DNA from: Hyphomicrobium nitrativorans NL23
GTDB taxonomy: Bacteria > Pseudomonadota > Alphaproteobacteria > Rhizobiales > Hyphomicrobiaceae
Direction of reading: 5' to 3'
Assembly (NCBI RefSeq): GCF_000503895.1
Contig: NC_022997.1
Span: forward strand, 1-64,000
DNA length: 64,000 nt
Shown here: piece after piece, positions 54,761 through 64,000 of the stretch
Layout: each line of letters starts with the position of its first letter
Position numbering within the stretch: position 1 is the first letter of the stretch
The notes under the pieces: model-generated
Databases searched by the model: none
Seen by the model: only the letters and a program-made list of their open reading frames with translations
Told to the model about the DNA's origin: nothing
Made by a program: the position numbers and the translations under genes

Positions 54761-54921
54761 AGGCACCATGCGGCCGGTAGCGCGCACTTCGATGTGCGGC
54801 TCGGCCGCGTGAGATTTAGAGATGGGCCTGAAAAGGCGATGGTGCCCAGGGCCGAGGCACCTAAACCCCATGTTTTCAATCACTTAAGTCGCAGGTTTAC
54901 ATTTGGCCACGCCGTGAAGAT

Positions 54922-55428
54922 TCAAGGCTTTACCCCTGCCGGTGTAAACCCTGCCCTCGCGTCGTCGGCCGCCTCAAACACGCGACGCGTGATCTCTGCC
55001 AAGTCGAGCACGATGAACCCGCTCGAGGTGACGCCAATGTCGGCGCGCGCGAAGCCCTGGCCGGGATGCGGATGCGCGTCGGCTGTCAGCCGATAGGACA
55101 GCGCCCCCATATCAACTGAGCGGCTGAATTCGATGTGCGAGCGACCGCTGGCCGGATCGAACGCGAACAGCGCCGGATAAGCATCACGCGGCCGGCTGAA
55201 GTCCGCCATGACGCGGTTGACCAGGCGCACGCGCTCCACGCGGGACGGGCACATGCGTTCGAGGTCGGACGCAATGAGAAGTTCGATCGCCTTTACAGCC
55301 GTCACATGCTGTTCGGGCGCGCCGGCGTGGCTCTCGTCAAAGGCTTTAACATTTAGGTAGGCTGAAAGCTCAGCCGGCGAGCGCTGCGTGAGCTTTGCGA
55401 GCTTCGAAAGGGGAATGCGTTCGGCCAT
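54922..55428 (-). CDS. island hypothetical protein
   Basis: 168 residues. The N-terminus (IPLSKLAKLTQRSPAELSAYLN) looks like a small helical, possibly DNA- or protein-binding segment; the rest is mixed alpha/beta. Good ribosome-binding site (GGAGATCGCCC). Last gene of the leftward block. Not recognised. Confidence 0.65.
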   Translation of the reverse strand: MAERIPLSKLAKLTQRSPAELSAYLNVKAFDESHAGAPEQHVTAVKAIELLIASDLERMCPSRVERVRLVNRVMADFSRPRDAYPALFAFDPASGRSHIEFSRSVDMGALSYRLTADAHPHPGQGFARADIGVTSSGFIVLDLAEITRRVFEAADDARAGFTPAGVKP

Positions 55429-55498
55429 GGGCGATCTCCGCTTGTTGATGCGGAGAGGCTGGCCGAACGCATGTTGTCGCGCAAATTTTGATACGAAA

Positions 55499-55750
55499 CT
55501 ACGCCCGAAGCCCTCTAATCGCGGCATCCAAATCGTCAGTAGGAAGTGGTGGCGGGCAGTTCTTTAAACCTCTGAGAGGTCGCTTTGCTTTCGCTATTTT
55601 CGGGCCCGCGGCCAGGAGAAACGCCCCTGCGATCAACGGCGAGACAACAAGGGAAAGTACGCACCAATCAGCGCCGCTCCTGTTAAACCGATTGCGAGCC
55701 CCTACACCGACTGCAATCGAGAGCAAAACCCATCCGATTATCAAATCCAT
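55499..55750 (-). CDS. small membrane protein of the island
   Basis: 83 residues with two hydrophobic segments (about 1-18 and 32-50) and a Pro-rich tail. GAAGGG lies 6 nt before the ATG. Its size would suit a holin, but no lysis enzyme is next to it; this is only a possibility. Confidence 0.6.
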   Translation of the reverse strand: MDLIIGWVLLSIAVGVGARNRFNRSGADWCVLSLVVSPLIAGAFLLAAGPKIAKAKRPLRGLKNCPPPLPTDDLDAAIRGLRA

Positions 55751-55860
55751 GTCGCACCCTTCAAGAATGATCTAATTCGCTTGGCGGCCATCGGGCCGAC
55801 CCGAAATTTTCGACCGATCGCGTCCGGCAACCTCTTTCAAACATTTTAGGGCTCTGTATT

Positions 55861-56463
55861 TCACGACGCTCGCCCGATATGTCCTTCAATGATGCCAGAC
55901 CGATCGATCAAGCACCGGATCGTGTAGTTCAGCTCAACACCAACGTTATTCTTCGCAGTGAAGGAGGAAAAAACCGTCGTGCGCCCGTTGGGGTGTTCGG
56001 CCACGGCTGTATCAAGAAAGCGTGAGAAGCTAACTGTGCTTGGCCGGACGGCGCGAGACTTCGCATAGTCCTCACAGAACTGAACCGCCGCGCTTTGATC
56101 GACGTGAACGGGCGCCGAAAGTGGAGCGGTAGCTTTCATGCTCAATTCATCGAAATGAACGGTTACGGTATCGAACCCCTCGCCGCACAGGACGAAAAAC
56201 ACCGGCCGATTCGCTGCTTTCGATCGCGTGACGGACTTCGCAGCCGTGCCGGCGTGAATAACATCGCGGCATCGAGCATCCTCGCGGTGCAGGCGATTCA
56301 CCGCGGCGATTATCAGGCGCTTATGATTCTTTGTGCCTGCATCCCAATAGAAGTCCGCCTCCGTGAACTTTTGCTGCGCAGCGCTCGCAGCGGACACGTT
56401 GACAATTTGTGACGCGATCACCGAGACAGCGATAAGCCCGAAACGACCCCAAAAATAAGCCAT
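55861..56463 (-). CDS. secreted hypothetical protein of the island
   Basis: 200 residues with a signal peptide (cut near ASA, about residue 28) and at least four cysteines, probably periplasmic. Strong ribosome-binding site (GGAGGGCGG). No recognised family. Unusual cargo for a small phage-like island. Confidence 0.65.
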   Translation of the reverse strand: MAYFWGRFGLIAVSVIASQIVNVSAASAAQQKFTEADFYWDAGTKNHKRLIIAAVNRLHREDARCRDVIHAGTAAKSVTRSKAANRPVFFVLCGEGFDTVTVHFDELSMKATAPLSAPVHVDQSAAVQFCEDYAKSRAVRPSTVSFSRFLDTAVAEHPNGRTTVFSSFTAKNNVGVELNYTIRCLIDRSGIIEGHIGRAS

Positions 56464-56521
56464 TGTCCGCCCTCCGAAATAATCAGATACCGGACGGATT
56501 CGGTTAACGAAAGGTTACTGA

Positions 56522-57532
56522 CTATCGGAGCTGCACCAACGTCCCTGCCGCACTCGTCGCGAGATTAACGGCGCCGAGCCCGGCCAACGCGTGAAGCGCC
56601 CGATGCGCAGACGACTTCGACAACCCAAGCCGTTCGCCAAGCTCGTCTAGTGGCCCCTCGAGCTGGCCGCCTGCGCTCTTGATCTTCGCTAGCACATCGT
56701 CTAGGGCGCGCGAGCGCTTACGTCCTACCGTCTTTCGATCGTCTTGCGGAGCTTCGGGAGCATCGGCCATGGCCGGAGCGGCTGCTACCTCCGGCACCGG
56801 CTTAGGTTCAACGGCAGGCGCGGACTTGGCCGGCTCTGCCTTCGCCGCAGCGCCGGGAAGCGCCCCAACGACGATCAGCGAAGCCGCGGCGCCAAGCTCG
56901 AAAAAGATGACCGAGAGCAGCACAAGCCAGGGCGACAGCTTCGCTGGCTCTACCTCATAGCCGAGCGCAGCCGCATAGCTGGCCATGGATGCTGCGGTCG
57001 GATCGGCCACGGTTGCCGTGGCGCCGGCGGCCATGACGCGCTCGGCGTCGGCGCGATCGGCCTCGAGTTTCGCTTTGCGCTCGGCGCGTGCCGCTTCGGT
57101 CTTACGGTTGCCCCGCGGTGCCGCCGCCAACGTCGCAAGCTCGACATTCGCCACCTTCGCCTTGTCTCGTGCGATTGCGTACGCGTCCGCTTCGGCGCCG
57201 CGCGTGGCGGCTGCAACGTCGCGGGCGCCACTAACAAAGCCGAGTGAGCTGACAGTCGCATAGGCAAAACAGCAAGCGGCCAATGCTAGAGCCACTAAGC
57301 CCCGCACAAACTGCCACCGGCCGAAGGCGTTGAAAGCGGCTGCGAGTGCGATCGGCGTCATGATTGCGCCGGCAATGGAGGCAATCGCGAGGATTAATGC
57401 GGCGATCTCTGAGCTTCGGGCACCAAGTGCCCAACCGTGAAGCGAGTTTTGCGCCGCGGCGCATAGGATGAAGGTTGCGGCTGCACAATAGCCGAGACAG
57501 CGCGTTCCGCGCCCGTTAGACTCCCGAAGCAT
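56522..57532 (-). CDS. four-helix membrane protein with C-terminal winged-helix domain
   Basis: 336 residues. Hydrophobic helices lie near 14-36, 42-66, 76-100 and 206-230. Between helices 3 and 4 is a coiled coil rich in Ala, Lys and Glu (about 110-190). After a Pro/Ala linker (about 235-270) a winged-helix-like domain follows (DDVLAKIKSAGGQL, LGERLGLSKSSAHRALHAL). The domain could bind DNA at the membrane. Ribosome-binding site TAGGAG. Not recognised as a described family. Confidence 0.7.
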   Translation of the reverse strand: MLRESNGRGTRCLGYCAAATFILCAAAQNSLHGWALGARSSEIAALILAIASIAGAIMTPIALAAAFNAFGRWQFVRGLVALALAACCFAYATVSSLGFVSGARDVAAATRGAEADAYAIARDKAKVANVELATLAAAPRGNRKTEAARAERKAKLEADRADAERVMAAGATATVADPTAASMASYAAALGYEVEPAKLSPWLVLLSVIFFELGAAASLIVVGALPGAAAKAEPAKSAPAVEPKPVPEVAAAPAMADAPEAPQDDRKTVGRKRSRALDDVLAKIKSAGGQLEGPLDELGERLGLSKSSAHRALHALAGLGAVNLATSAAGTLVQLR

Positions 57533-57669
57533 GGGTCACTCCTATTACAGGTAGGGTTGGCTCTAGGCCCGCCGAGCTGTTAGCGCAGCGCGACGGGCCG
57601 CTTCATTTAAAGCGGTATACCGTTTCGAAATAACTTACTTTCTCAACCTTGTATGGCCACAGGTTGAAT

Positions 57670-58146
57670 TTAATTCTTACGGGGCAGTCCGCCTAGTAGG
57701 CCGGCAAACCTCCCGCCAAATGGCGTCTCGCCGCGTTTCGGAACGTTTAAGCGCGCGCCGGGGTGCAGCCCCAAAAGACCGGCTGTCCTATGAAGGGTAT
57801 CGACGGCAATCTTCCACGTCTTGACGGCCGGGTTGCTGGTCCGACCTCGCGCCGTTTCAACCGTTATCCCGAGGTCGGCAATGGCTTCCTGCGACGTGCA
57901 GAGCATCCCCCAGGCGAGAGCATGGGCTGCTAGCACGCCTTCGTGCGCGGCGCTGATCAGCCCAGGCGGCATAATCGAGAGCACGCGGTCCCATTCCGCG
58001 GAGGCCACGGGGTTTGCAGCGACAACGGGCGGCTTTTGCGGGGGCAAATCGACAATGATTTCGTCGTCAGCGATCGGGCGCTTGCCCGGATTACCTTCTA
58101 ACAACCGGATCACGTTGCTTTTAGGCTTCCTGCCTACTTTAGCCAT
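57670..58146 (-). CDS. phage terminase small subunit, P27 family
   Basis: 158 residues. The N-terminal basic segment (VGRKPKSNVIRLLEGNPGKRP) and the following ASAEWDRV and LGLHPGARLNVP marks are typical of P27 small terminases, which recognise the packaging site. AAAGGTGA precedes the ATG at 58146; a GTG at 58155 is possible. No large terminase follows, though it normally comes next. Confidence 0.85.
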   Translation of the reverse strand: MAKVGRKPKSNVIRLLEGNPGKRPIADDEIIVDLPPQKPPVVAANPVASAEWDRVLSIMPPGLISAAHEGVLAAHALAWGMLCTSQEAIADLGITVETARGRTSNPAVKTWKIAVDTLHRTAGLLGLHPGARLNVPKRGETPFGGRFAGLLGGLPRKN

Positions 58147-58243
58147 TAAAATCACCTTTTAGAAAACTTCCGCGTTTCGCGAATTTGAAAATGCGACCCC
58201 ATGCGGCGGTCCCCAAGGGCAAACGCGTGAAAGTTTTTTCCTT

Positions 58244-58633
58244 TTATTTTCGGGTTAGTTGCGTCGCGCGTCTCCGCGGCCTCGGTTCGCTCGGCGGAAA
58301 GAGCACCGCAGTCACGTGCGACGTGATGACATCACGGACCTTCGGGGGAAGGCCGGGAACGGATGCTAATGCGAGCGCGATAGCATCCGGAGAGACCGGA
58401 CCAGAGCTGCGGTTGATCTCGAATGCCAACACATCGGCATGGCGATAGCGAACATGGCGGCCGACCATCACGTATCGAGGCCCGCCGCCGTGTCGCCGCA
58501 TAAAGCCGAGATGCCCAACTGATACGCGAAGGTGCCTCGCGACTTCAGCGGGCTTGAGCATTACGCCCTCAGTGAGACGCAGCATCGGATGAAAGGCCGG
58601 ATCGACCTCAAGATTTTTTGGAACATTGAGCAC
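58244..58633 (-). CDS. HTH domain protein (AlpA/excisionase-like)
   Basis: 129 residues with a central MerR/AlpA-like helix-turn-helix (LKPAEVARHLRVSVGHLGFMRRHGGGPRYVMVGRHVRYRHADVLAFE). GTG start with AAGGGG upstream. It lies between the capsid and small terminase genes, 25 bp after the capsid gene in transcription order. Likely a regulator or packaging/excision helper. Confidence 0.7.
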   Translation of the reverse strand: MLNVPKNLEVDPAFHPMLRLTEGVMLKPAEVARHLRVSVGHLGFMRRHGGGPRYVMVGRHVRYRHADVLAFEINRSSGPVSPDAIALALASVPGLPPKVRDVITSHVTAVLFPPSEPRPRRRATQLTRK

Positions 58634-58658
58634 GATCCGGCCCCTTCCGACACGCCGC

Positions 58659-59837
58659 TTACGAGGCGGCGATCTTCAGCAGCTTGATAGCCGCGTAGTC
58701 CTGCACACCGCCGCCAACGCGCTTCGTGGTGTAGAACAGGACGTAAGGCTTCGTTGAATACGGATCGCGAAGAACGCGAATGCCCGTGCGGTCTACGATC
58801 AGATAGCCCCGCTCGAAGTCACCGAACGCAATCGGCGTCGCGTCCGCTTCGATCGACGGCATATTTTCATCAATCACTACCGGGCGGCCAAGGAGCGTTG
58901 CGGGCTGACCAACTTGGATAGACGGTTGCCAGAGGTAGTTTTCGTTATCATCCTTCAGCTTCGCAACCGTTGCGGCAGTCGAGCTGTTCATCAGCCAGCT
59001 CGCGTTCGCCCGGTACGTTGCTTTGAGCGAAAAATACAAATCGTAGAGGGCGTCCACGCCGTTGTGCGTGCTGTCGGACAACGCCGCGGCAACGCCGCTC
59101 ACGCGGAAGCCGATTTTGCCCCATGCCCAAGACGGGTCCGCGACCTTAGGGACGGAAAGGAAGCCTTTCGGCTGCTTGATGCCGGTGCCGTGAACGAAAG
59201 CCGTATCTTCCATTTCCGAAAACGCCGTCGCGATCTCAAGACTAAGCTCAGCAGCAACATCTGCGAAGGCGTCGTCGATAAGCGTCTGCGTCACGGCCGG
59301 CATCGCCTGAAGTTCCCATACGGGGAATTCCAGCTCGGACAGTTTCATTCCCGGCGTCTGATTGCGCGCCTCGCGCTCGCCTACCCATGTCGCAGTGGGA
59401 CCATTGAGGCTCACGCACTTGACGTACGCGCTCGTGTCAGTGGTGACGACGCGCGCGATGGAACGCATCGGCGTCGCGTCACGGGCGAGGCGGGCGATGC
59501 TCTGTTCAACCGTGCGAGGAACGAGGTAGCCGCCATCAGGCTTATTGTCGGTGCCCATCGACGCGCGGATGCCGCGACCAAAAGCTGCGAAGGCTTCACG
59601 TTCGGAGCGAGCATCGCCGCTCAGAATGTCACCGCAGCCCGTGCGCCCACCGATCTGCTCGATACGGCTGCGCTCGCGGCTTTCGTCTTCGAGTGCCTTG
59701 AGCCGTCCACCGAAGTCGTCGCGAAAGGTGCTAATCGTCGAGGTCAGTCCGTCCAGAGACGCGCGCACGTCCGAGCCGGCGGCGTTAGCGAAAATGCGCG
59801 CGTCATGGGCGCGCGCGGGAATGGAAATCGGTTTCAT
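58659..59837 (-). CDS. phage major capsid protein, HK97 fold
   Basis: 392 residues. An N-terminal scaffold-like coiled coil (about 25-65) is followed by the HK97 core: GGYLVPRTVEQSIARLARD, WVGEREARNQT, AFVHGTGIKQPKGFL and VRDPY-like region near the C-terminus. The ATG at 59837 has GAAAGAGAT upstream. No maturation protease is next to it, so the N-terminal domain would have to be removed by a protease from elsewhere or kept. Confidence 0.92.
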   Translation of the reverse strand: MKPISIPARAHDARIFANAAGSDVRASLDGLTSTISTFRDDFGGRLKALEDESRERSRIEQIGGRTGCGDILSGDARSEREAFAAFGRGIRASMGTDNKPDGGYLVPRTVEQSIARLARDATPMRSIARVVTTDTSAYVKCVSLNGPTATWVGEREARNQTPGMKLSELEFPVWELQAMPAVTQTLIDDAFADVAAELSLEIATAFSEMEDTAFVHGTGIKQPKGFLSVPKVADPSWAWGKIGFRVSGVAAALSDSTHNGVDALYDLYFSLKATYRANASWLMNSSTAATVAKLKDDNENYLWQPSIQVGQPATLLGRPVVIDENMPSIEADATPIAFGDFERGYLIVDRTGIRVLRDPYSTKPYVLFYTTKRVGGGVQDYAAIKLLKIAAS

Positions 59838-60005
59838 CGATATCTCTTTCAAAAATAAATCTTTCGGCGCGAAATGCGCCACGCGCTCATGATCGCCCAG
59901 CGCGCGCAGAACGCAAAAAAATGCAGCGGGCCGTTTAGATTCGGCACCGCTGCACTCAGCACAGCAAAATCAAAAGGAAGTTCGATGCCCACTCGGGCAT
60001 TACAA

Positions 60006-60407
60006 TTATGCCCGAAAATCGAGCGGCACCAAATCGTGGCGCCAACTGAGACGTTTTGCGTCGCTTATCCTTTTCACGACGGCACGATACGCCCGCCCCT
60101 CGAGTTCCTCTCGCCGCCGGTCACCGCCAGGTGCTCGAAAGACCCAGTAAACATGCGCCCAGCCAAGGGAGGCGGAACCCATGCGATGATCGATGTTCTC
60201 GCTGCGCACGTCGTCGGGTGGGAGCCAGCATCTATCCCAATATCCGAGATCAATTCGCGCACAGACGGATACGCGCTTGGCGGTGGCTTCAATCGCGAAA
60301 CCCGGTCCGTCACCACCGCGGCGCGTCTCCACCAGCAGCCAAGGCAACCGAACGCGGCGGTCAACGAGGTGAGCGGCGCGCTCCCGCAAGCGATCCCAGG
60401 GCGTCAT
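60006..60407 (-). CDS. island hypothetical protein
   Basis: 133 residues, mixed alpha/beta, rich in Arg and Trp. Starts inside the end of the preceding small gene (ATGA overlap at 60404-60407). Not recognised; could be a head or regulatory protein. Confidence 0.65.
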   Translation of the reverse strand: MTPWDRLRERAAHLVDRRVRLPWLLVETRRGGDGPGFAIEATAKRVSVCARIDLGYWDRCWLPPDDVRSENIDHRMGSASLGWAHVYWVFRAPGGDRRREELEGRAYRAVVKRISDAKRLSWRHDLVPLDFRA

Positions 60408-60613
60408 GCTGCACCGCCAATCGCGAACACCACGGGCACGAGCTGCCCGCGTACGCGCTCGACGCCGACGAAGAGCTGGCGCCGGCCCGTTTTGATGATG
60501 CGCCCCACGATGCCAGGGGCGGGGAGGTTTTCGGCCATGGTCACGAGGCCGTCGAGATCGACGCGCTGTTCGCGGGTCTTCGTCTTAAATTTCTTCGAGA
60601 TAGGCTTGGTCAT
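60404..60613 (-). CDS. small basic island protein
   Basis: 69 residues with a Lys/Arg-rich N-terminus (KKFKTKTREQRVDL) and a compact C-terminal half. Translationally coupled to the next gene. First gene after the AT-rich repeat region, so it probably opens the capsid-terminase operon. Confidence 0.65.
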   Translation of the reverse strand: MTKPISKKFKTKTREQRVDLDGLVTMAENLPAPGIVGRIIKTGRRQLFVGVERVRGQLVPVVFAIGGAA

Positions 60614-60720
60614 CGGTTTGCTCCGTTGTTCATCTGCGATGTACACACGGTGCCGCAACACGATTAAAAAAGCGCAAACGCCATCGCCCGCTTCCGAAAA
60701 TCCGGTTGCGGGGGCGAACA

Positions 60721-60813
60721 ACGCATAAAATATACGTAGAGTTCTTACCGCCGAGTTAATGACGCATATTTTATGCGTAAGCTTTTCGAACCGCGCTGCG
60801 CATAAAAAATATG
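60721..60813. repeat. GCATAAAATAT inverted and direct repeats
   Basis: GCATAAAATAT (60722) is matched by its complement ATATTTTATGC (60766), and GCATAAAAAATATG follows at 60800. The AT-rich triple repeat lies upstream of the capsid-terminase gene block and resembles a phage operator set. Confidence 0.6.
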
Positions 60814-60854
60814 TCGTTCGGCCAGGCTGAAGGTTCTTGGACAGGAGCGGGACA

Positions 60855-60889
60855 CGGACATCCATCTCCTAGAGATGGATGGATGTCCG
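60855..60889 (-). terminator. GGACATCC hairpin cluster after the primase gene
   Basis: A 12-bp stem (60855-60866 with 60878-60889) competes with an alternative 8-bp stem (60860-60867 with 60873-60880). Further GGACAT/ATGTCC copies run to 60960, into the end of the primase gene. It may stop or attenuate transcription, or be a binding array such as an origin. Confidence 0.5.
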
Positions 60890-60916
60890 TCCGGATGTCC
60901 GGCGGACACGGACACG

Positions 60917-62794
60917 CTAAAATCCGGACATGTCCGGGATGTCCGGGCCTCGCTTGTAGAGCCTTCCCCCCTCTAGAACGTAGGCGGTGGCCAATGCTTT
61001 CTTGAGAGCGCGATCCCAAGCCTTCCTACGGCTGTCCGGTTTTCCAGATCGTGCCGCCTTAAATGCAGCTTCAACGGCCGCCGCTTCTCCGGAAGGCACT
61101 TTCGCCAGGGCATCTTCAAAGTCCCGTCCGCTCTGGACGCTCGTGAAGCCATCTTCGGGGGCGGCGGCCGTGCCATTCGGCCGCGCCAGCTCACGGACAA
61201 AGCATGACGTGATCGGCTGCCCGTCCTTCTTGGTGCCAACCTGAACTATGGGGAGTTCTGCCCAGCCTAGGCGGCATTCCGCAGCGTCACGGCACTTTTC
61301 GAGGAACACTTCGCCGTTCTTGCGAAGCTCAATCACGAAATCGGCGTTAGCTCTTAGTGCCGACGAACCGCGCAACCTTTCCGGCCCATGACCAAAGTGA
61401 TGCGTCGCAAGGCAAGTCGCACCAATTGTCTGGCTGACTGAGTGCATGATCTTGGTGGCGCGCGTTACCTCCGTTGAGGCGTCTTCGTCACGCAATGTGA
61501 ACGCCTGTCCGAAGGTATCGAAGACGACGAGGCCGAGCGGGACACCGAACTCGCGGCGCATGTCCGCGTCCACTTGCCGTAAATCGGCAATGAAGGCTTC
61601 CAAGCCGGCGGAACTCATGACGTCGATCGCACCCTTCGTGAACTTCAGGGGAAGTTGCCTCGCAGCCCTACTGTCCAAGCCGAAGGCGTGCACTGCCGCC
61701 GCTTTAACGCGATGCGTGATCGAGTAGCTACCTTCCGCGGCAACGATGTAGGTTCCAAACCCCGCTTCGATCTTGCGCCCGTAGAAGGGACGCTGCATCG
61801 CGCCGCTCAGTGCCAAGTGAACGAGTTGGAAGGTCTTACCCGCGCCCGACTTGCCGCCGAGAAACCCGATTCCGCCGCGCTGGATCGTCTCATCAACAAG
61901 CCAGTCGATTTCCGCATCTAAAGGCTCGTCGCCAACCCAATACGATAGGGAGCGCGAATTTTCCGGTTTCGGAAGCTCGACTGCGCAGAACCCGGCCGCG
62001 GGATTGTCGCGGCCGGCGGGCACTTGTCCATAGCGATAAGCGTTCGCGACAACGGTCTCTAGTTCATCGGCCGGCCATTCCGGCAAGCATCGAAGGTTGT
62101 AGTGCTCCCACATGAGATCAAAACATACGGGCTCTGAAACGCCGCGATCCTTCACCTGGCACGCGACCTTGAACGTCATCTCGTTACCGCCGGAACCCTC
62201 CACAGCCGCCGGCGCGGCGTCTTTGAGATAGGCTGTCGCTGCCTCTATCGACGCGGGCGTGTCTAGTTCGCCCAACGTCTTCGGTGCTTCCGCAGACTTT
62301 CGATGCGCCGCCACAAGCCGCTCTAAGAGCCAAGCCGGACATTCCGCAACGGGTGCATCGCGCTCGAGTAGGTACTCCCGACCCTTGAAGGTCGAGCCCA
62401 CGCCCATGACGTAGCTTTTCGGACCTGTCTTTATGTCAACGCCTTGTCCAAGCTTATCAGTTCCGCCCGATAGATCGGCGCCGGCCGGCGCGCGCAAGTA
62501 CAGGTGAAGCCCGCCGTTCGGCGTTCTCACTGTGTAGGTAGCAGGCAACGGCGGGTGGCCCTTAAGGGTCTCCAAACCCTCGCGGTGTGCGTCTACGTCC
62601 ACGACCACAAGACGGTCAGTGCGAACGCCGATGTTGGTGCGAGCCTCAATGAAGGTGTCGAACGCTTCGGCGGGATCGGCAATCGCCCCTCCGTTGGCCC
62701 AATCCCGCTGGGGTTTGTCTTTCGATCCGTGCCGGATGCGGAACACAGGATCGCCGTTGCGGGCGTGCCGAACGGCTGTGGACACGAGGCTCAT
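60917..62794 (-). CDS. primase-polymerase / RepA-like AAA helicase replication protein
   Basis: 625 residues. N-terminal bifunctional primase/polymerase domain (about 1-190; VVVDVDAHREG, TPNGGLHLYLR), then a RecA-like AAA domain (about 305-520) with Walker A GGKSGAGKT and Walker B LVVFDTF. This fusion is typical of replication initiators in phages and satellites. It overlaps the preceding gene by 4 bp. An ATG at 62827 would add 11 residues. Confidence 0.88.
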   Translation of the reverse strand: MSLVSTAVRHARNGDPVFRIRHGSKDKPQRDWANGGAIADPAEAFDTFIEARTNIGVRTDRLVVVDVDAHREGLETLKGHPPLPATYTVRTPNGGLHLYLRAPAGADLSGGTDKLGQGVDIKTGPKSYVMGVGSTFKGREYLLERDAPVAECPAWLLERLVAAHRKSAEAPKTLGELDTPASIEAATAYLKDAAPAAVEGSGGNEMTFKVACQVKDRGVSEPVCFDLMWEHYNLRCLPEWPADELETVVANAYRYGQVPAGRDNPAAGFCAVELPKPENSRSLSYWVGDEPLDAEIDWLVDETIQRGGIGFLGGKSGAGKTFQLVHLALSGAMQRPFYGRKIEAGFGTYIVAAEGSYSITHRVKAAAVHAFGLDSRAARQLPLKFTKGAIDVMSSAGLEAFIADLRQVDADMRREFGVPLGLVVFDTFGQAFTLRDEDASTEVTRATKIMHSVSQTIGATCLATHHFGHGPERLRGSSALRANADFVIELRKNGEVFLEKCRDAAECRLGWAELPIVQVGTKKDGQPITSCFVRELARPNGTAAAPEDGFTSVQSGRDFEDALAKVPSGEAAAVEAAFKAARSGKPDSRRKAWDRALKKALATAYVLEGGRLYKRGPDIPDMSGF

Positions 62795-63225
62795 TGCACA
62801 GCCACCGGCACACCAAGCATGTCCCAAAGGACGCTGCCGTTTCCGCTTTCATGCATCGCCTCGAGATACCGCCACCAGCCTTCTGGCGAGTGCCGCGTGA
62901 AGGTGCTTCGGCCGCGCTCACCATAGAGCAGTAGCGGGGACGAAACCGGCCCGAACCATCGTTCTAAGCATCCATCGCGGTAGCGAATGGCGACAATCGC
63001 GGCAGGGTATCGCGACCATCCCTCAGGGACAGCGCTTTCCCCCTGCCGAAAGAGAACGCCCCGATACTCGCACGGCAGAGCCTCACGGACATGCCACTCG
63101 CAGCCGTGGCGGCCGTAGTACCAAAGATCACGATGCGCACCTTCGGCGGCGTCATATTCCGCCCAGTATGCGACGGGATCGGCACGCTTTAGAGCGGCGC
63201 TAAGGCCGATAGCTTCTTTGAACAT
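62791..63225 (-). CDS. island hypothetical protein
   Basis: 144 residues, rich in Trp, Tyr and Arg, no signal peptide. GAAGGGAAG before the ATG. Coupled to the replication gene by a 4-bp overlap, so probably early-acting. Confidence 0.65.
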   Translation of the reverse strand: MFKEAIGLSAALKRADPVAYWAEYDAAEGAHRDLWYYGRHGCEWHVREALPCEYRGVLFRQGESAVPEGWSRYPAAIVAIRYRDGCLERWFGPVSSPLLLYGERGRSTFTRHSPEGWWRYLEAMHESGNGSVLWDMLGVPVAVQ

Positions 63226-63381
63226 CACACTTCCCTTCAAAAACTCGCGAAAGGAAGCGCGTCGCAAAATTGACTTTCGGGGTGAAAGTCACGACTATGT
63301 GGGGGTCAGCCATTTCCATTCGCCGTTAAAATTATCAGACAAAAAGAGCCCGTCCGGTTGCCAGCCGGCGGGCTTTGCCGT

Positions 63382-63585
63382 TTACGCGGCTCGATTAAGT
63401 TCGGCCGAAGACCCGAATGTGTTGGCGGCCATCCACTCCCTAAGTTCCGCCACGGGGTACAAATAGCGCCCGTGTACGGCGAGGAACTTCGGCCCTACGC
63501 CTTTATCGCGCCAACGTTTAAGGGTCTTCGGAGTGCGATTTAGCAACCGACCCGCCTTGTCAGGGGTCAAACAGACGTTTTCCAT
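63382..63585 (-). CDS. AlpA/MerR-like HTH regulator
   Basis: 67 residues, one helix-turn-helix (LTPDKAGRLLNRTPKTLKRW) plus a wing (GRYLYPVAELREWM). Strong ribosome-binding site (GGAGACTTAAG). Proteins of this type switch on excision or replication in satellites such as P4. Divergent from the gene at 63853, with a perfect palindrome between. Confidence 0.8.
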   Translation of the reverse strand: MENVCLTPDKAGRLLNRTPKTLKRWRDKGVGPKFLAVHGRYLYPVAELREWMAANTFGSSAELNRAA

Positions 63586-63708
63586 CTTAAGTCTCCACAT
63601 AAAGTGCCGCGTCGTCGCCTTTGGGGACAAAGCGAGACATGGCGGGATGGAAACTTAAAATGGGATGCGCTGCAAATTTCGGTTCCAAGTTGGACGTTAT
63701 GCGACTTT

Positions 63709-63737
63709 TAGAATGCTCAGCAATGCTGAGCATTCTA
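63709..63737. promoter_or_regulatory. 13-bp perfect inverted repeat between divergent regulators
   Basis: TAGAATGCTCAGC (63709-63721) is perfectly complementary to 63725-63737 around a 3-nt centre. It sits in the 267-bp gap between the two divergent HTH genes, as expected for an operator of the island switch. Confidence 0.6.
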
Positions 63738-63852
63738 ATGCCAAAATCTGAATAAGAAGTTTATCGCGCGGCGCGCGGGTTTACAGAATGCGATTTTGGC
63801 GATTTGTGTTGCGATGATATTTTTTAGGCTCGTTATTTATCGAGCCACCGCA

Positions 63853-64000
63853 ATGACCCGCCACGAAAAGCCCAGCGCCGTTTTACCGTCCTCGATGCCG
63901 TTACTGCTGTGCTCGCGGGTGCAAGCTGCGGCGTTGCTCAATGTTGCTCCAACCACCTTCGACAAGCTGCGCAAGAGCAATGCCCTGTTGCGGCCGGTCC
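63853..64000 (+). CDS. HTH protein, partial at window end
   Basis: The frame from ATG 63853 is open to the window edge (49 codons). It reads as an AlpA-like helix-turn-helix (SRVQAAALLNVAPTTFDKLR). It is the only rightward gene in the island and divergent from the other regulator. Its length and any integrase behind it cannot be seen. Confidence 0.6.
   Translation, partial: MTRHEKPSAVLPSSMPLLLCSRVQAAALLNVAPTTFDKLRKSNALLRPV

Follow-up and report, generated by a model that had tools for sequence, protein, structure and literature searches.

The right-hand part of the window analysed here, i.e. the first 64,000 bp (C1:1-64000) of the single 3,653,837-bp contig representing the genome of Hyphomicrobium nitrativorans NL23 (G000), contained an integrated island that carries phage small terminase and capsid genes and extends beyond the window. 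A direct-repeat search placed this island at contig positions 54,840-65,262, or 10,408 bp from repeat start to repeat start. The attachment (att) repeat TGGTGCCCAGGGCCG, which corresponds to the final 15 nt of tRNA-Phe, occurred on the left at 54840-54854, ~80 bp past murA, and again outside the window at 65248-65262, in tRNA-Phe(GAA) (65248-65323, minus strand). A tyrosine integrase gene was located just outside the window (64089-65201; PF00589, 4.9e-12). Both the integrase and the right end, which the original prediction had proposed to look for past 64 kb, were found there. The segment 54922-64000 is the island without its integrase end, since the repeats, the integrase and tRNA-Phe close the island at 65,262. 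The stretch at contig 53001-73000 (L003) displayed, in order, an AlpA-type gene, a palindromic spacer, a helix-turn-helix (HTH)-like open reading frame (ORF) starting within the window (63796-64000, plus strand, by eye), the integrase and tRNA-Phe; ORFs past tRNA-Phe are presumably chromosomal genes. The G+C content was 59.7% in the island and 64.6-65.1% in its flanks. The longest match obtained in 200 mononucleotide shuffles of 250-/260-bp flank pieces was 13 bp, versus 15 bp for the att repeat. One further direct-repeat family (16 nt, 94%) was reported; the island ends were not paired by that family.

Island ORFs were scanned with Pfam and PHROGs, some short ORFs falling outside these scans. 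The P27 small terminase, HK97 capsid protein, primase-polymerase/helicase and AlpA-type switches announced by the original prediction were all confirmed. The genes and boxes described below are on the minus strand unless stated otherwise. The P27-type small terminase (TerS) gene was found at 57670-58155 (PF05119, 4.4e-10; phrog_83, 3.3e-21) and the major capsid gene at 58659-59882 (PF05065, 5.8e-84); the latter encodes an HK97-type protein of 407 aa, or 392 aa from the probable start at codon 16, with a short delta domain. The replication protein encoded at 60917-62827 combined a primase-polymerase with AAA_25 (PF09250, 1.9e-23; PF13481, 2.6e-22). AlpA/HTH_17-type proteins were encoded at 58244-58633 (excisionase-like; Pfam, PHROGs; homologues in the islands of genomes G081 and G045) and at 63382-63630 (regulator; PHROGs). 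Between divergent genes, a perfect 15-bp palindrome with a 1-nt centre (63708-63738, no strand assigned) is a candidate operator, and the genome contained no other such sequence when up to three mismatches were allowed; no counterpart was found in the integrase/AlpA spacer of genome G064. Conserved companions were a 158-aa protein without assigned function (62791-63267), whose structure prediction was not usable (predicted local distance difference test, pLDDT, 35.5), and a 336-aa membrane-HTH protein (56522-57532) with N-terminal membrane helices (by eye) and a C-terminal HTH_IclR (Pfam), homologues of which were present in five other islands (G064, G067, G081, G045 and G085 contig 76). Large terminase, portal, head protease, tail and lysis families, already described as missing, had no match among the scanned island ORFs; neither Pfam nor PHROGs matched a tape-measure protein in the window island.

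The original prediction had suggested searching related genomes for the same gene set. A second intact island of the same design was indeed found in G064, which belongs to the same genus. It measured 11,329 bp between two perfect 46-bp copies of a tRNA-Arg(ACG) end, which are longer att repeats than those of G000, and displayed the order integrase, AlpA, 144-aa ORF, primase-polymerase, 174-aa ORF, capsid, HTH, tape measure, TerS and membrane-HTH. Its tape-measure protein of 566 aa had no matched counterpart in the window island, and the two integrases differed in domain make-up and in tRNA site. Identities between the two islands amounted to 65% for TerS, 64% for the primase-polymerase, 59% for the membrane-HTH protein, 41% for the capsid and 70% for the 158/144-aa ORF, the best conserved of the compared ORFs. 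Ratios of nonsynonymous to synonymous substitution rates (dN/dS) were 0.05 for this ORF, 0.11 for the primase-polymerase, 0.16 for both TerS and the membrane-HTH protein and 0.31 for the capsid, all at saturated dS; the 129-aa HTH protein (29% identical) was too diverged to be scored. At the level of sequence, these values are signs of purifying selection on the five shared genes.

Conservation extended to two non-coding boxes. Directly after the primase-polymerase stop, a 66-bp element (60852-60917) shared 60 of its 66 bases with the G064 island (L041), where the next-best place matched 32/66. It contained GGACA/TGTCC repeats together with a hairpin of 10 bp centred on TAG. One pair of this hairpin was changed on both arms, being T-A in one island and A-T in the other. 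Fold z-scores of the element as single-stranded DNA were -4.6 (G000) and -3.3 (G064). It adjoined an AT-rich stretch (60715-60824, no strand assigned, with GCATAAAATATGCG-like repeats in the window island), the most AT-rich of the island in G064 and among the two most AT-rich in G000. From its position and conservation, we infer that this element is a candidate replication origin. Tandem repeats followed the primase-polymerase in the G081 (CGGCGGTT, nine times) and G045 (TGCGCAGT, seven times) islands and, by the same test, not in two other related islands; the origin pattern had no match in viral contigs.

The second box, of 28 bp (58183-58210), was located just upstream of terS and was identical at 27/28 positions in G064 (L041:13229-13256). 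HK97-type phages carry their cos site before terS, which is why this box, by position and conservation, is a candidate cos-like packaging site. Among the 546 non-coding 28-mers of the island's window part, the median best match was 17, and 24 or more matching positions were encountered only in these two boxes. A promoter and terminator scan gave no excess over shuffles.

The kinship of the capsid protein was examined in a 42-row tree, which has long branches and an arbitrary root. The G000 and G064 island capsids formed a pair (96/83) outside a 25-row clade (100/99) comprising the host gene transfer agent (GTA) capsid, 11 of the 13 rows that came from GTA-classed contigs (L172 and L174 fell outside) and 13 further rows that were not individually classified. 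A tree with both island capsids among these 25 rows was not rejected (p 0.11). Identity between the island capsid and the host GTA capsid was 44%; at the DNA level, a portion of 185 bp close to the 3' end of the gene reached 80%. The best solved match of its AlphaFold model (mean pLDDT 74) was the capsid of the Rhodobacter capsulatus GTA (RcGTA; 6tsu, 6tb9; 44-45% identity), followed by that of EcCI2 (9gyi; 35-36% identity), a capsid-forming phage-inducible chromosomal island (cf-PICI).

The GGYLVP motif was preceded by 116 (first start) or 101 (better start) residues in G000 and by 102 in G064. Under the first-start rule, at least 122 residues were counted in all 43 relatives giving a value, i.e. 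10 of the 18 P27-type and 33 of the 38 GTA-type loci submitted, some of them near-identical. With ribosome-binding-site starts, P27-type relatives ranged from 132 to 179, and two GTA rows gave 75 and 39, probably from wrong starts. The delta (scaffold) domain of the island capsid appears short, by some 20-35 residues relative to P27-type relatives. By analogy with Ccm of the Staphylococcus aureus pathogenicity island (SaPI) SaPIbov5, this capsid protein need not make shells unaided and is as likely to co-assemble with the capsid protein of a helper.

A helper prophage resident in G000, in which the original prediction had hoped to find a matching large terminase and portal, was searched for and rejected. 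PF03354 (TerL_ATPase) had no match in the genome, and the sole phrog_2 large terminase was part of an RcGTA-like cluster at C1 ~2,607-2,618 kb (L005) with Terminase_6N/6C, portal and Peptidase_S78; no such head-tail cluster was present in the window island itself. The G064 genome likewise displayed one phrog_2 large terminase, located ~5 kb away from a GTA-clade capsid gene. The best relative of the island TerS (42%, L058) adjoined TerL_ATPase, portal and ClpP protease genes, and the P27 phages looked at combined TerL_ATPase with ClpP protease, versus Terminase_6 and Peptidase_S78 in the host GTA. P27-type loci were found in G055, G045 and G041, of the same family. P27-type phages are likelier helpers than the GTA because of the TerS type (capsid identity plays no part in this), the neighbours of the best TerS relative and the ClpP-type protease carried by two G085 islands.

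The window island displayed integration, its own integrase, att repeats, its own replication gene and an incomplete virion set. It is probably an integrated phage satellite that would borrow the remainder of the virion from a helper phage. The satellite part of the original prediction, a capsid-forming satellite dependent on a helper, was supported by the island ends, the integrase, the replication gene, the G064 copy, the signs of selection and the conserved boxes. The term capsid-forming should, however, not be taken to mean cf-PICI: the island is not one, because no match was obtained for most head genes (portal, protease, connectors) or for the large terminase. Entry of a helper, most likely of the P27 TerS / TerL_ATPase / ClpP-protease type, would trigger excision, and the island would replicate from the hairpin element by means of its primase-helicase. 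TerS would then guide the large terminase of the helper to the island DNA, at the box upstream of terS, and the island capsid protein, with its shorter delta domain, would join or replace the helper capsid protein and alter the shell. Portal, protease and tail would be supplied by the helper. In the G064 relative, the added tape-measure protein could reset the tail as well.

Several points weigh against this satellite interpretation. The att repeat is 15 bp long, and no empty site was revealed by murA synteny, murA being absent beside tRNA-Phe in stretches of up to 20 kb from six same-genus genomes. No helper phage was identified with PF03354 and phrog_2 over the host genome. Conservation between the G000 and G064 islands was low for the capsid (41%) and for the adjoining HTH protein (29%), and the dN/dS values are rough because dS was saturated. 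Capsid identity does not decide between P27 phages and GTAs: best tblastn segments reached 58% for P27-type loci (L077, L078) and 56% for a GTA-type locus (L088), and identities over the whole alignment were 52% for L077 and 55-56% for GTA-type L082, L084, L036 and L088. The topology test did not reject placement of the G000 capsid with the 25 GTA-clade rows (p 0.46). A change of shell size by the capsid protein is proposed by analogy, and according to PMC5052747 large capsids apparently took up a shortened SaPIbov5 in the form of concatemers.

A decayed prophage, in which integrase, replication gene, terS and capsid were kept by chance while the rest was lost, is unlikely. A capsid gene without portal or protease could look like such a remnant, and 667 of 1165 prophages from non-animal-associated Hyphomicrobiales, the order to which the host presumably belongs, are given as incomplete in PMC11080155. 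The terminase and head classes (capsid being counted as a separate class) are listed in the same source as preferentially lost in this non-animal-associated group, whereas terS was kept here. The named island ORFs were open, an argument already raised in the original prediction, and the set recurred in G064 at another tRNA site, with another integrase type and signs of purifying selection. Both islands were bounded by paired repeats, and the two non-coding boxes were kept while other non-coding DNA was not.

It is quite improbable that the island is a satellite of the host's own GTA, feeding its TerS and capsid into GTA particles. The single phrog_2 large terminases of G000 and G064 would fit such a dependence, as would the resemblance of the island capsid to the host GTA capsid, to GTA-type capsids (up to 56%) and, in structure, to RcGTA. 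The P27-type TerS argues for other partners, given that P27 phages and the host GTA differ in both large terminase and protease, and two related islands encoded a ClpP-type protease. A GTA origin of the island capsid was likewise disfavoured by the best tree, which pairs the island capsids outside the host GTA clade; the topology test for the G000 capsid leaves room for it.

It is very doubtful that capsid and TerS now serve solely as anti-phage weapons, interfering while the island itself is not packaged. Assembly could be poisoned by a capsid homologue on its own, and according to PMC5052747 the block on the helper phage was due mainly to Ccm. The mobility genes, the conserved box before terS and the origin-like element speak for transfer too. 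An ordinary prophage running on past 64 kb was dismissed, as the large terminase, portal and tail module looked for there were not found.

The satellite interpretation was extended to related islands. At 1e-10, the primase-polymerase matched 17 places in 15 of 103 family genomes, of which 13 places were examined (those in G094, G028, G015 and G044 were left out). Virion genes were found at nine of these 13 places, always as partial sets drawn from tape measure, TerS, large terminase (TerL), capsid and head protease; such counts are not frequencies, because the places were chosen by primase-polymerase similarity and small ORFs were incompletely scanned. The G000 island carried TerS and capsid, that of G064 capsid, tape measure and TerS. 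Four further islands combined paired end repeats with partial virion sets. That of G067 encoded a large terminase and a tape measure and measured 14,403 bp; its 60-nt repeats were 88% alike, and one of them was part of tRNA-Arg(CCT). The G081 island (14,130 bp; 21-bp repeats without a visible tRNA) encoded a tape measure. In G045, 51-bp repeats at tRNA-Met enclosed 21,458 bp with a tape measure and a TerS from a different family, and on G085 contig 67 (L215+L219), 48-bp repeats at tRNA-Cys enclosed 15,669 bp with a ClpP-type protease, a P27 TerS and a tape measure. G085 contig 6 (L220) displayed a ClpP-type head protease, a P27-type TerS and a tape measure in an island that reaches the end of the contig, G085 contig 76 a tape measure, and G060 a minor tail protein (phrog_1924, L222:16027-16692) in a stretch with primase-helicase and integrase match. 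Tape measures were thus present at seven of the nine places, the exceptions being the window island and G060. No virion genes were detected at G054, G061, G024 and G040 by tblastn and partial PHROG scans, and no portal by tblastn in the islands tested or by PHROGs, not all small ORFs having been scanned.

Several observations were made beside these islands. L206 (G067:C3:184934-199396) contained a large terminase and an 820-aa tape measure between tRNA-Arg(CCT)-like repeats, no capsid or portal being found, and a broken membrane-HTH copy at L207:18050-18369 of the same genome is perhaps what is left of an earlier one. Near primase-polymerase genes, proteins of ~170-350 aa that are charged and probably form coiled coils recurred (by eye), with no useful PHROG match, at L206:868-1743 (outside the island repeats), L215:12204-12710, L216:6996-7655, L222:8206-8895, L223:7439-8458, L224:7048-7929 and L225:7084-8130. 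These proteins could be scaffold-like.

Even credence is given to the view that this family hosts a lineage of primase-polymerase satellites, mostly integrated at tRNA genes, whose virion genes would be exchangeable cassettes swapping one to three parts, and never a portal, into the helper particle. The swapped parts would be capsid, tape measure, small or large terminase and head protease; the window island would represent the capsid plus TerS form, to which its G064 sister adds the tape measure. Since G064 combines capsid and tape measure, the satellite could determine the head as well as the tail if cassettes are indeed exchanged.

Database searches indicated a limited distribution of the characteristic genes. 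Among 397 genomes of the order, the membrane-HTH protein matched 15 (1e-8), the 158-aa ORF one and the primase-polymerase alignment two (1e-60), the second of which (G200) concerned a stretch without visible capsid gene; G064 was absent from the last two match lists and was therefore missed by the evenly drawn genome sample. TerS matched two of 103 family genomes at 1e-5 (G000 and G064) and, at 1e-10, three of 385 genomes of the class, of which two gave weak matches. The capsid was far more widespread, with matches at 1e-20 in 60 of 103 family genomes, many of them presumably GTA capsids and some classified by their neighbours; the genome-contigs scan gave five loci, four GTA-type and one P27-type. 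Related capsids occurred at no fewer than 80 viral-contig loci; those among the matches listed comprised 63 GTA-type, 13 P27-type and four unclassed loci, none of which displayed the island's other queried genes at 1e-5. With the patterns used, viral contigs revealed no protein related to the 158-aa ORF, the membrane-HTH protein or the tape measure. The 50,697 phage records contained 587 capsid matches, all below 60% identity, 298 primase-polymerase matches, none covering 80%, one TerS match (30%) and no tape-measure match; 32 of 72,556 plasmids matched the primase-polymerase, again none covering 80%. Second capsid copies in G102 (contig end, GTA clade) and G003 were rejected as further islands, being without the island's other genes. 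In L043 (G003:C8:1002-3676), a 494-aa HK97 capsid gene was followed by a recombinase-like ORF (by eye), with no terminase or portal match in the stretch.

The window island contained five further ORFs. Those of 201 aa (54922-55527) and 133 aa (60006-60407) had no family match, that of 83 aa (55499-55750) had no Pfam match, and a phage-type ORF of 200 aa (55861-56463; phrog_29597, 1.8e-10) was without assigned function. A probable 69-aa ORF (60404-60613) was started by eye, the longer 153-aa frame having no Pfam match.

Among known satellites, the window island would act like cos-type SaPIs such as SaPIbov5, small islands with a capsid-protein homologue, in making use of such a homologue. According to PMC5052747, one cos SaPI measures 10.3 kb and the delta domain of SaPIbov5 Ccm is, by modelling, 44 residues shorter than that of its helper; in structures published later, the pentamers of the small shell contain Ccm (PMC8569155). 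The window island differs in belonging to another phylum, in its Prim-Pol/AAA replication protein, in carrying a P27 TerS and in its tRNA-Phe site. Capsid and TerS genes are shared with cf-PICIs, and the EcCI2 capsid was among the best structure matches. As described in PMC10690885, cf-PICIs encode a whole head and packaging set (capsid, protease, portal, connectors, both terminase subunits and HNH), whereas only TerS and capsid were matched among the scanned ORFs of the window island. As regards a Stl/AlpA switch with divergent promoters, as in PICIs, the window island displayed AlpA/HTH_17 ORFs and a palindrome between divergent genes.

P4-like satellites integrate in tRNA genes and encode AlpA-type regulators and a primase-helicase with a nearby origin. 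The window island shares tRNA integration, AlpA-type regulators and a primase-helicase next to a candidate origin; it differs in its capsid strategy, which would involve a capsid homologue and not an outside scaffold. Described satellites mostly either alter the helper shell via scaffold-like proteins or bring a whole head (PMC10690885). With the phage-inducible chromosomal island-like elements (PLE) of Vibrio cholerae, G064 and six other examined islands have the tape measure in common, while host, genes and replication differ, and the window island displayed none. Chimeric tails are a feature of PLE11, which builds them with its own tape measure according to PMC12987554, where further putative satellite tape-measure genes, including in cf-PICIs, are also mentioned.

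Neither a capsid homologue nor a tape measure is new by itself, since cos-type SaPIs and PLE came before, although a working satellite tape measure was demonstrated only recently, for PLE, according to PMC12987554. No prior report of these islands was found among the matches listed in the open-licence full-text literature. Within these matches, the alphaproteobacterial lineage, the combination of TerS and capsid without other head genes, and the apparent exchange of virion parts between related islands would be new. A capsid homologue and a tape measure both occur in one alphaproteobacterial island lineage, relatives of which carry other parts. These islands may offer a natural series for asking which self-supplied virion parts profit a parasite, and the candidate origin, packaging box and operator are named sites open to direct tests.

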